A DNA stretch of 43,521 bases from NCBI RefSeq assembly GCF_022711995.1, contig NZ_JALAHI010000050.1:1-43521 (forward strand), written 5' to 3'. Positions 8,240-39,397 of the stretch are shown here, piece after piece. Numbering within the stretch: the first letter of the stretch is position 1; every line of letters starts with the position of its first letter. Under the pieces are notes generated by a model. It saw nothing but the letters and a program-made list of their open reading frames with translations, did no database searches and was not told the DNA's origin. This DNA comes from Enterococcus sp. GTDB lineage: Bacteria; Bacillota; Bacilli; Lactobacillales; Enterococcaceae. Position numbers and translations under genes: made by a program.

Positions 8240-9343
8240 GTGGAAAAAATATTTGTCAGTCCGCAACGGTATATCCAAGGAGAAAACTTATTAAAAAACG
8301 GATTGCATCATATCGTTTCGCTAGGAAGCAAATTGTTGCTGCTTACGGATCCTTTTGTCTGGAAGATCGCTGGTCAAGAACTAGCGGAGGATTTAGCCCA
8401 CCAGGGAGTCCTAGTTAGTGTCAATTTCAGTGGCGAATCTTCACAGGAAGAAATCACGCGAATCGTCAAAGAGGAAAGTGCAGGAATCGAAGCAGTAGTT
8501 GCGCTTGGTGGTGGAAAGGTGATTGATACCGGTAAAGCAGTGGCTCATTTGTTAAAGGTAGCGATTGCAGTTGTCCCTTCAGTTGCCTCGACTGACGCCC
8601 CGACTTCTTCCATTTCGGTTCTTTATTCAGCGGAAGGAAAATTTGAACAGTATCATTTTTATCCCAAGAATCCAGAGTTGGTCTTGGTTGATACCGCTCT
8701 AATAGTCAAAGCACCTGCAAAATTATTAACTTTTGGTATCGCAGATGGATTGGCGACATATGTTGAAGCTAGAGCAGTGGCTAAAAGTGGCGCTCAGAAT
8801 CTCGTGGGCGGACGACCGACTTTAGCTGCTTTGGCGATTGCTGAAAAGTGCGAAGCAGTGCTGTTTGCCAATGGATTGGCAGCGTATCAAGACAATCAAC
8901 AGCAACAAGTGACGGATGCCTTCGATCAAGTTGTCGAAGCAAATACTCTCTTGAGCGGACTGGGCTTTGAAAGTGGCGGACTAGCAGCAGCCCATGCGAT
9001 CCATAATGGCTTGACAGCCATCACTGGAACATTGCATCAACTTTCCCACGGCGAAAAAATTGCCTATACGACATTGATGCAATTGCTGCTTGAAGAAGAT
9101 ACCCAGGAATTGGATCGCTATATTACGCTATATCAAGCATTGGGATTACCGACAACGCTAGCTGAAATGCGGATGGCTACCCTCAGCGATCAGGAATTAC
9201 TAGCGATCGGTGTCCAAGCGACTATTCCAAATGAAACGATTCATCGAATGCCATTTACGATCACAGCAGAAGAGGTAGCAAAGGCGTTTAAGGCTGTCGA
9301 TGCATATGTCACCCAAAATTTTTCACAAAGAAAAAAAGATTGA
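8240..9343 (+). CDS. gldA: Glycerol dehydrogenase (iron/zinc-dependent, GldA family)
   Basis: A protein of 367 residues. The NAD-binding region contains the GGGK motif (ALGGGKVIDTGKAV) and PSVASTDAPTS. The metal-binding histidines are expected in AAHAIHNGLT and LSHGEKIAY. The family oxidises glycerol to dihydroxyacetone with NAD, or the reverse, often together with a dihydroxyacetone kinase that is not seen here. The start is GTG 8240, with GAAGGAG 5 nt upstream; the frame is open further upstream but without a ribosome site. Rex control is suggested by the operator at 8196. The stop codon overlaps the -35 box of the next promoter, so the two units are packed tightly. A related polyol dehydrogenase activity is possible. 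Confidence 0.88.
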   Translation: MEKIFVSPQRYIQGENLLKNGLHHIVSLGSKLLLLTDPFVWKIAGQELAEDLAHQGVLVSVNFSGESSQEEITRIVKEESAGIEAVVALGGGKVIDTGKAVAHLLKVAIAVVPSVASTDAPTSSISVLYSAEGKFEQYHFYPKNPELVLVDTALIVKAPAKLLTFGIADGLATYVEARAVAKSGAQNLVGGRPTLAALAIAEKCEAVLFANGLAAYQDNQQQQVTDAFDQVVEANTLLSGLGFESGGLAAAHAIHNGLTAITGTLHQLSHGEKIAYTTLMQLLLEEDTQELDRYITLYQALGLPTTLAEMRMATLSDQELLAIGVQATIPNETIHRMPFTITAEEVAKAFKAVDAYVTQNFSQRKKD

Positions 9344-9368
9344 CTTCTATTTTTTCCCGTGCTATTTT
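9340..9368 (+). promoter_or_regulatory. Promoter of the cysteine leader and mccA-mccB-yrrT-luxS
   Basis: TTGACT at 9340-9345, spacing 17, TATTTT at 9363-9368 with an extended TGC just before it. The predicted start near 9375 gives a 5' end about 26 nt before the leader ORF start codon. The -35 overlaps the gldA stop codon. Confidence 0.75.
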
Positions 9369-9400
9369 GTTTACAAGCTTAAAAAGGAGGGAACGTAGAC

Positions 9401-9481
9401 ATGACAAACAACAACTTTGCATTGGAATGTTGTTGTTGTATGGTGCTAAAAAGCAGCATACAGATTTGTCATGCCTATTAA
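9401..9481 (+). CDS. Cysteine-rich leader peptide, 26 residues, with Cys-Cys-Cys-Cys
   Basis: AGGAGG at 9385-9390, then ATG at 9401 after 10 nt. The peptide reads MTNNNFALECCCCMVLKSSI and continues QICHAY. Four consecutive TGT codons occupy 9428-9439 and a fifth Cys codon is at position 23. Cysteine is rare in this proteome, and the next genes make cysteine, so the peptide should sense charged tRNA-Cys rather than work as a protein. Its mRNA is itself highly paired: the start-codon region CATGACAAA (9400-9408) is complementary to TTTGTCATG (9465-9473). A coincidental ORF in a structured RNA is the alternative, but SD, spacing, Cys run and gene context agree. Confidence 0.78.
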   Translation: MTNNNFALECCCCMVLKSSIQICHAY

Positions 9482-9552
9482 TCGTTCCTTCATCTGGATA
9501 AATCACTCTAAGGGTCTTTTTCATCAAGGAAGGGTCTTAGAGTCATTCTCTA

Positions 9553-9590
9553 AGAGGTACTGATTGAATAGTCAGTGCCTCTTTTTGTTT
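9553..9590 (+). terminator. Attenuator terminator before mccA
   Basis: AGAGGTACTGA (9553-9563) pairs with TCAGTGCCTCT (9572-9582) over 11 bp with one G-U pair. The loop is 8 nt, and TTTTGTTT follows. It lies about 160 nt before mccA with no gene between, so it must act within the leader. The 156 nt between it and mccA contain the palindrome GGTGATCACC (9647-9656) and no other structure that I can name. Confidence 0.88.
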
Positions 9591-9746
9591 GCTTAAATTT
9601 TCCTGGTAAGGATCGGCAGATGAGCACAGATGATGCTTTTTGAGCGGGTGATCACCAAAAAAACAGTGATAAAACGCAGTTTCTCTGATTTGCTGCAGCA
9701 CTTTAGCGGACTGCTACCAATAATTTCATTGAAAAGAGGGTTGACC

Positions 9747-11833
<2,087 letters not shown>

Positions 11834-11834
11834 A

Positions 11835-12485
11835 ATGGGTCGTGAATTCATTCCGATTTTTTCTGAGTGGGCCGAAGAATATGACGAGACAGTCAAAGGG
11901 AAAGATGAAGAATATCGGGAGGTTTTTCTTCACTATTCAGAATTGTTAGCAGATATTGCTGAAAAAGCAGGAGATTCTGTGATAGAATTTGGTAGTGGTA
12001 CAGGTAATTTGACGTTAGAGTTGATCCGCAGAAATAAAAAAGTTTTTGCAGTTGAGCCATCGGCTGCGATGCGAAAAGTAGCTGAGGCAAAGCCGGAGTT
12101 ATCACAGGTAACTTTTGTGGATGGGGACATGGAACGATTTCCTCAGAATGATTTTCCGATTGATACGATCGTTTCTAGTTATGTCTTTCATCACTTGAAT
12201 GAAACAGAGAAACTGCGAGTGATCAAGAAATACAGAGCACTGCTTCCTGAAGGCGGAAAAGTCATTCTGGGAGATACGATGTTCTTGTCCGCCAATCATA
12301 AAGAAAGTATCCTAAGACAAGCTGTCAAAGCCAATCACTTACGATTGGCAGCGGATCTGCAACGAGAATACTACCCCTTGATACCAGATATTGAAGCCTA
12401 TTTTCGAGCCAATGGCTTTAGCATTCGCTTTAAGCAAATCAATGCTTTTGTTTGGCTCGTCGAAGCGAGAGGAGAAAAAGAATGA
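11835..12485 (+). CDS. yrrT: SAM-dependent methyltransferase, YrrT family
   Basis: A class I methyltransferase of 216 residues. Motif I is EFGSGTGNL and the acidic motif is AVEPSAAM. It closely resembles B. subtilis YrrT, including the start MGREFIPIF, and YrrT lies in the mtnN-mccA-mccB operon of Bacillus. The natural substrate is not established. The linkage suggests it makes or balances the S-adenosylhomocysteine that feeds recycling through MtnN and LuxS. It starts right after the mccB stop codon, and its end overlaps luxS in an ATGA arrangement, so the four genes form a tight operon. Confidence 0.85.
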
Positions 12486-12937
12486 AAATGAACGTGGAAA
12501 GCTTTAATCTAGATCACACGAAAGTCAAAGCACCCTATGTACGGGTCGCAGACAAAAAACAAGGGACAAAGGACACGATTATCAAATATGATGTTCGGTT
12601 AAAACAACCAAATCAAGCACATATGGAGATGGCCAGTCTCCATTCGTTGGAGCATTTGACCGCAGAATTGATTCGTAATCATGCCGACTATATTGTTGAT
12701 TGGTCACCGATGGGCTGCCAAACTGGCTTTTATTTAACGGTTTTAAATCATGAGGATTATGATGAAATTTTAGCCGTGTTAGAAAAAACGATGGAGGATG
12801 TGTTGAAAGCAACGGAAGTTCCAGCTAGTAATGAAGTTCAATGCGGCTGGGCTGCTAACCACACCTTAGAAGGCGCCCAACAATTGGCGAGGGAGTTTTT
12901 AGCTGAACGAGACAACTGGTCAACAGTCTTTGCGTAG
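12482..12937 (+). CDS. luxS: S-ribosylhomocysteine lyase LuxS
   Basis: A protein of 151 residues. The metal ligands H54 and H58 are in LHSLEHL (usually HTLEH, here with Ser) and the third ligand is C121 in VQCG. The catalytic cysteine is C79 in SPMGCQTGF. LuxS splits S-ribosylhomocysteine into homocysteine and 4,5-dihydroxypentane-2,3-dione, the precursor of autoinducer-2. The homocysteine can go straight into MccA and MccB. AGAGGAG lies 7 nt before the ATG at 12482, which overlaps the yrrT stop. The position behind a cysteine attenuator ties AI-2 output to sulfur status. The nucleosidase MtnN that makes its substrate is not in the window. Confidence 0.97.
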
Positions 12938-39207: not shown

Positions 39208-39397
39208 TGTATTTCTACCTGCGGAGCAAGAGGTTTGTTTTCATCTCACGATGAGGTTTGTTCTTGCCTATAGAGTGCAGTCCCTAGAGTTACCCGCCGA
39301 AACCTTCGATAAACTCTTTCCTCGTCATCTGTTGTACAGATCAGGCGCTATTCCTATTGGTCTATCTATCCTCCTTAGCTTATTTTGTAGAAATACA
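39208..39397 (-). repeat. 11-bp inverted repeat enclosing the glmS ribozyme
   Basis: TGTATTTCTAC at 39208-39218 is the exact reverse complement of GTAGAAATACA at 39387-39397. On the mRNA, the arm at 39387-39397 begins at the predicted transcription start. The other arm follows the ribozyme core, so the primary transcript's 5' end could pair across the whole ribozyme. Confidence 0.6.
39209..39350 (-). ncRNA. glmS ribozyme (GlcN6P-activated self-cleaving riboswitch)
   Basis: On the minus strand the signature runs in order: AGCGCC, then GATCTG/CAGATGACGAGG, GTTTATCGAAGGTTTCGGCGG, then the P3/P4 arms CTGC...GCAG and CAAGA...TCTTG enclosing CTCATC/GATGA. This is the glmS catalytic RNA fold, placed directly upstream of glmS. 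By analogy the cut falls between the A at 39349 and the G at 39348. GlcN6P acts as the cofactor, and the cleaved mRNA, with a 5'-OH, is then degraded in Gram-positives. The 3' boundary is approximate. Confidence 0.94.

Follow-up and report, generated by a model that had tools for sequence, protein, structure and literature searches.

T-boxes, riboswitches and repressors are the devices to which the control of amino-acid genes in Firmicutes is normally attributed. In enterobacteria, the trp and his attenuators combine control codons with the mutually exclusive helices 1:2, 2:3 and 3:4. The polycysteine uORFs of mycobacteria are said to be leaderless ORFs, an account credited to Canestrari in 2020. 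In Mycobacterium and in other Actinobacteria, the Cys run of such polycysteine uORFs is close to the stop codon, and a conserved terminator hairpin is absent (PMC1262725). Two further papers describe leader-peptide attenuators for histidine that are predicted in the Firmicutes orders Bacillales, Eubacteriales and Erysipelotrichales (PMC2965389, PMC9413887), and another describes the uORFC-8-2 motif, located before cysS in Rhodobacterales, with two Cys codons and a two-stem structure (PMC8632094). The kind of attenuator is known elsewhere, namely from proteobacterial leaders, from the cysteine uORFs of Actinobacteria and Rhodobacterales, and from the predicted His leaders of Firmicutes. Among the matches listed in a literature search that covered few subscription papers, no cysteine leader-peptide attenuator was found in Enterococcus, Lactobacillales or Bacillota.

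The locus described here belongs to a 43,521-nucleotide stretch of DNA from Enterococcus sp., called the window below. It is read as a cysteine-responsive, ribosome-mediated transcription attenuator located before mccA-mccB-yrrT-luxS, a reading to which we assign a probability of roughly 85%. Its elements, and the genes that follow, are these:

9340..9368, + strand: promoter-like boxes TTGACT and TATTTT with a 17-nt spacer (motif scan)
9385..9391, + strand: Shine-Dalgarno sequence (SD) of the leader ORF, AGGAGGG (sequence)
9386-9406, + strand: segment A, the SD plus the start codon (folding)
9401..9481, + strand: leader peptide ORF of 26 codons, MTNNNFALECCCCMVLKSSIQICHAY (ORF reading)
9428..9439, + strand: four tandem Cys codons (TGT x4), the proposed stall site (sequence)
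9438..9461, + strand: hairpin P-B, arms 9438-9446 and 9453-9461, directly 3' of the Cys codons (compensatory changes)
9467-9469, + strand: fifth Cys codon of the leader ORF (sequence)
9467..9473, + strand: TGTCATG, partner of CATGACA at 9400-9406 and with it the core of A:B (alignment)
9475..9488, + strand: segment B, the putative antiterminator strand CTATTAATCGTTCC, which contains the leader stop codon (folding, alignment)
9501..9547, + strand: linker hairpin in the B-C interval (folding)
9556..9571, + strand: segment C, the terminator 5' arm plus loop, partner of B or D (folding, alignment)
9552..9590, + strand: intrinsic terminator C:D with U-tract, stem 9552-9583 (terminator search, folding)
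9747..10703, + strand: mccA, PLP enzyme of the CysK/cystathionine beta-synthase type (protein family scan)
10682..11833, + strand: mccB, cystathionine gamma-synthase/lyase family (protein family scan)
11835..12485, + strand: yrrT-like methyltransferase, named after the initial annotation, its NCBIfam methyltransferase matches being below their cut-offs
12461..12937, + strand: luxS, S-ribosylhomocysteine lyase, start approximate (protein family scan)

Like the His attenuators, this leader has a run of control codons in its ORF together with a terminator and, in its case, a putative antiterminator (PMC9413887), and both are placed in Gram-positives where T-boxes prevail; they differ in the amino acid, histidine, and in the genes, and they are set apart here by description and not by sequence. 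The comparison with uORFC-8-2 likewise follows its description only: tandem Cys codons in a uORF are followed by an intrinsic terminator in both, whereas that motif has two Cys codons and two stems, precedes cysS and belongs to alphaproteobacteria. With the actinobacterial polycysteine uORFs, the leader shares a Cys-codon run upstream of cys operons; its SD and terminator place it outside the mycobacterial leaderless-uORF class. Control codons are common to this leader and to the trp and his attenuators, and its helices would, as in these, be mutually exclusive. Unlike in these, B would here be captured by the start region, which precedes the stall site, and a separate hairpin is found at the control codons.

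The SD, the 26-codon ORF with its TGT x4 and fifth Cys codon, and the terminator had all been noted in the initial annotation and were confirmed. It had also proposed a promoter, of which the boxes are indeed present, while their status above chance is not borne out by their number, since TTGACT-17-TATTTT occurs at 2 sites vs 2.5 expected (both strands, 9000-10000). In the printed upstream regions of relatives, boxes resembling a promoter were seen by eye at the same place. The start region of the leader ORF in the window is complementary to 9467-9491, and the folding energy of the leader gives a z of -9.07 against shuffles. From the terminator stem to mccA there are 163 nt in the window (9584-9746) and 167 in a relative (L038), compared with about 25-65 nt in most other aligned leaders and 78-114 in a few. 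Upstream of the leader, an apparent dnaK, dnaJ and glycerol-dehydrogenase gene were recognised by eye. An Rfam scan of the leader gave zero families above cut-off, and matches to caiA, TLS-PK4 and STnc390 were discarded because their scores are far below the cut-offs. Elsewhere in the window, a glmS ribozyme/riboswitch is located at 39215-39360 on the minus strand (Rfam RF00234, 76.9 bits).

The survey of mccA orthologues covered 105 genomes of the family, 48 of them with an orthologue at E below 1e-100; in one genome (G003) mccA is broken, being split across two frames (L036 2862-3772). Forty-nine mccA loci were examined, the window included. The upstream region is cut off in one (L079), and the remaining 48 comprise 41 with one alignable leader (alignment A1) and 7, all of genus g17, with a different Cys-Cys leader. 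SD, uORF and terminator are present in 41/41 aligned leaders, each of which outfolds shuffled sequence with z below -3, and the ATG is an invariant column of the alignment. At least three tandem Cys codons are kept in 38 of the 41, the longest run being 4 in 21 leaders, 3 in 17, 2 in 2 and 1 in 1. The initial annotation had named loss of the Cys codons with retention of the fold as contrary to its reading; the alignment upstream of mccA gave no such pattern in general, the exceptions being L040 and L046, where one Cys of the run is replaced, and L052, where a single Cys codon is left before an operon without an adjacent mccB.

The distance from the start codon to the last codon of the Cys run is 36, 39, 42, 45 or 48 nt in the 41 leaders, always a multiple of 3, with starts picked in frame and that of L046 set by hand. 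When the first ATG after the SD is taken without the frame condition, it is in frame in 35/41, the other six having another ATG. Beyond the run, TGTCATG stands in phase 2 relative to the ORF in 24 leaders, in phase 0 in 16 and in phase 1 in one, and the peptide differs in sequence and frame between groups while the Cys codons persist. Since the frame after the run is unconserved, we read these comparisons to mean that translation matters as far as the Cys codons, and that beyond them it is the RNA, by its sequence and its structure, that counts. Arrest by a nascent peptide that senses tryptophan is known from TnaC, and the CCCC peptide, while in the exit tunnel, could similarly sense a thiol or free cysteine, which would agree with the Met-Val that follows the Cys run in 39/41 aligned leaders as judged by eye (L067 has Val-Val, and L052 has lost the run). 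However, the residues before the run vary, those after it differ by group as described, and other lineages carry CCCVV, CCCGL or CCQ; peptide arrest is considered very unlikely.

Hairpin P-B begins inside the last Cys codon. Compensatory changes are found in alignment A1 at 4/8 of its pairs, with 99.7% of cells paired, and at 4/11 pairs of the terminator. The core of A:B pairs in 98.3% of cells, with changes on both sides at 1/7 pairs, which is no more than in shuffles (336/500 reach the observed value). In the wider alignment A4, whose 59 rows are fitted to the structure being counted and include one spurious row (L137 minus strand, 20.5 bits), compensatory changes reach 6/8 pairs of P-B, and A:B has changes on both sides at 3/7 pairs. 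In a swap test, the SD paired better with B segments of its own genus group than with those of other groups, with 0/2000 permutations reaching the observed value at n=39, a set that omits L052 and L054 and has group g13 split in two by hand; with all 41 leaders, 30/2000 permutations reach the observed mean. Groups g13 and g13b had no within-group gain in this test.

Throughout A1, P-B sits 10-11 nt upstream of CAU|G, which is conserved as such or in a closely similar form. RNA polymerase pause sites that are stabilised by a hairpin have a similar hairpin spacing. By this analogy, P-B is perhaps a pause hairpin that links RNA polymerase to the ribosome; in the footprint folding model it plays no part in the contest among B, A and C.

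The evidence on the antiterminator is mixed. With the P-B 5' arm masked and the terminator 3' arm absent, B:C forms in 13/13 main-type leaders folded; L054 and L052, folded likewise, deviate from this pattern, and L054 is missing both B and the matching loop. In alignment A1, 89.1% of B:C cells pair, vs 16-52% when the strands are slid. The B:C pairs changed on both sides in A1 are not above shuffles (227/500), and further pair types are likewise no more frequent than in shuffles. The swap test for B:C within the family is not significant (604/2000 at n=39, 266/2000 at n=41), single-leader B:C energies are no better than for shuffled sequence (median 0.545), and only in 30/41 leaders does the best-pairing partner of C overlap with B. 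Among 65 leaders of several families, there are 51 in which the first five bases of B are matched by their exact reverse complement within the inner terminator, 5 in which they pair with one G-U and 9 in which they are without pairing. The pair types are CTATT/AATAG and CTAAT/ATTAG, the latter in 4 of the 6 CTAAT leaders. In genus g3, the leaders before mccB retain AATAG in a rebuilt terminator stem. Over 36 rows of this set, 20 B:C cells are changed on both sides vs 6.7 in shuffles (0/500 reach the observed value), while the number of B:C pairs with both-side changes in these same rows is not above shuffles (123/500). An antiterminator through the P-B 3' arm (CAGCATACC with GGTRCTG) was tried and rejected, as no helix passed the thresholds and B:C formed in all 13 leaders folded.

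The position of the segments can be added to this. The interval between B and C outfolds shuffles, with z below -1 in 40/41 leaders and below -2 in 22, and such a folded linker would bring B and C together. The stop codon is 4-23 nt past the start of B in 34/41 leaders and at least 32 nt beyond it in 6/41; in L052 it precedes the start of B. Taken from sequence comparison, A:B and B:C are supported mainly by conserved complementarity, and P-B and the terminator by covariation; the ORF and the Cys codons, together with P-B, the terminator and the A/B/C complementarity, emerge from the alignment of leaders.

A different switch had been proposed in the initial annotation, within three local segments of the CTCTAAG type, by formation of either 1:2 (9505-9512 with 9536-9543) or 2:3 (9536-9543 with 9548-9555), with 9485-9490 and 9526-9531 as a third putative pairing. 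These segments are present and complementary in the window, but the ordered CTCTAAG triple is found only there: an ordered triple of at least five bases is absent in 4/5 congeners, and the fifth (G002) has only another 5-mer, AAGAG, its outer segments remaining and its middle one changed. The switch is unconserved even within the genus, and 2:3 would unpair no more of the terminator than its A-U base, with the upper stem intact. This local arrangement is hardly plausible as the switch.

The contest over B was followed in a folding model in which assumed ribosome footprints were masked and D was not yet made, with at least 5 expected B:C pairs as the criterion. B:C was obtained in 16/41 leaders with no ribosome and in 15/41 with a lone ribosome on the last Cys codon, the window not being among the latter. 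With ribosomes on both the last Cys codon and the start codon it was obtained in 39/41, with the start alone masked in 38/41, and with a ribosome between the hairpin and B in 31/41. A ribosome at the stop codon gave 0/41, and ribosomes on stop and start gave 4/41. According to the model, it is a ribosome on the stop codon that would hold B apart from C, the start region would be the other captor of B, and a stalled ribosome would act by failing to reach the stop codon. Once D is present, the terminator C:D wins at equilibrium, and the switch must therefore be kinetic.

For the preferred reading, a cysteine-responsive attenuator, we infer ribosome stalling, a response to cysteine, a sequence of steps and a part for P-B, as follows. 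RNA polymerase would transcribe the leader while a ribosome translates the small ORF, P-B possibly keeping the two together. With sufficient Cys-tRNA, the ribosome would pass the Cys codons, reach the stop codon and cover segment B, so that C would pair with D and transcription would end before mccA. When Cys-tRNA is scarce, the ribosome would stall on the TGT codons, before it reaches B; the bare B would then pair with C, and read-through into mccA-mccB-yrrT-luxS would follow. If there is no translation, the start region of the ORF could capture B through A:B.

A more elaborate form of this reading is put forward only tentatively, as a possible though doubtful one. The leader would found a new RNA family in Lactobacillales, where the ORF's own start site competes for the antiterminator strand and the read-out is given by ribosome positions: start plus Cys codons ON, stop codon OFF, and no ribosome OFF in many members. 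It may sense ribosome queuing at the Cys codons and not a single stall, which is conceivable since a second ribosome would fit into the 36-48 nt between the start and the last Cys codon, and P-B may pause RNA polymerase for coupling. These bacteria are thought to be poorly coupled in transcription and translation.

The distribution of the leader was surveyed with two models built from the leaders, R1 and R2, in genome samples that overlap and under strict filters. R1 matched 47/103 genomes and 7/17 genera of the family (E up to 0.01) and 38/395 genomes of the order (E up to 0.001). R2 matched 43/395 genomes and 11/80 genera of the order (E up to 0.01), with two matches taken as chance, as well as 4/398 genomes of the class, one being a genome (G437, 84% complete) labelled only as of the same class, and 2/398 of the phylum (E up to 0.001). 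The matches thus obtained extend into other families. The two that were taken as chance, L147 and L148, have E values of 0.005-0.008 and no Cys ORF. Nine genomes of genus g3 carry two copies of the leader, and in these mccA keeps its own; the second copy, examined in 6/9, lies each time before an mccB-like gene that is accompanied by an ABC transporter. In six more genomes of this genus, which have a single match, the copy is found in that same position (loci L122-L133 together). Where the operon has been divided, the leader apparently stays with the cysteine genes.

Similar neighbours are found at the other loci, where genes were named by eye from protein starts, the family scan being that of the window's four genes. 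The copy precedes an ABC transporter at L134, L135 and L139, mccA-mccB-yrrT-like genes at L136 and L143, an acyltransferase-like gene, cysK and a transporter at L137, L138, L140, L144 and L149, and cysK at L141. A weak match with a Cys run (L145) has an mccB-like gene 1.2 kb away, and another weak match (L146) is a Cys-Cys-Ala-Cys-Cys leader with a terminator before an apparent cystine symporter of the TcyP type. By eye, cysteine synthesis or transport genes are downstream in 24/25 further Cys-run copies, L145 being the uncertain one.

Leader ORFs that sense antibiotics are known in Firmicutes. An example is that of hflX (PMC8632094). The leader could be conceived as a general attenuator of translation stress, from antibiotics or redox stress, with the Cys codons as a mere slow spot; the cysteine genes downstream of those 24 copies and a run that is Cys in all lineages argue against it, and we hold this explanation to be very improbable. 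The mechanism class of the initial annotation, a leader peptide of Cys codons that controls a cysteine operon by transcription attenuation, is supported by conservation across several families and by the kinds of genes downstream.

The leaders of genus g17 offer a parallel. R1 had zero matches in the 4 g17 loci supplied and in the g17 genomes of the family sample, and the seven leaders (L074-L078, L080, L081) encode SYSCCQ.SR[CF]GD in unrelated sequence; in L080 and L081, Phe takes the place of the third Cys, which belongs to the loop of the hairpin. The order of elements is the same: Cys codons, hairpin, B-like strand, terminator. The hairpin after Cys-Cys has one compensatory pair and two broken cells among the 7 leaders, and the strand that follows it is CTTTGCGTG or TTTTGCGTG. 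This B-like strand can pair with ACGCAAAG in the start region in 5/7, L078 and L081 pairing otherwise, L081 weakly, and it is the best partner of the terminator 5' arm (GCGCGAAA or GCGCGGAA) in 6/7, not in L074. As judged from these sequences, g17 shows what appears to be a similar pairing logic in an unrelated sequence.

The T-box model has zero matches in the window. Elsewhere in the same genome there are 22 T-box matches, 15 of them over the cut-off (loci L150-L169); one (C135:8681-8933) stands directly before an mccB-similar gene and another (C123:89473-89703) 1.5 kb before such a gene. Apparently, this genome relies on T-boxes near sister genes and on a leader peptide at the present locus. 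If the attenuator reading is true, classical attenuation would be established in Firmicutes and conserved over several families, here in a genome that has 22 T-box matches. It would also define a cysteine regulon for enterococci, comprising synthesis, transport and luxS, and would furnish a natural test of transcription-translation coupling in these bacteria.
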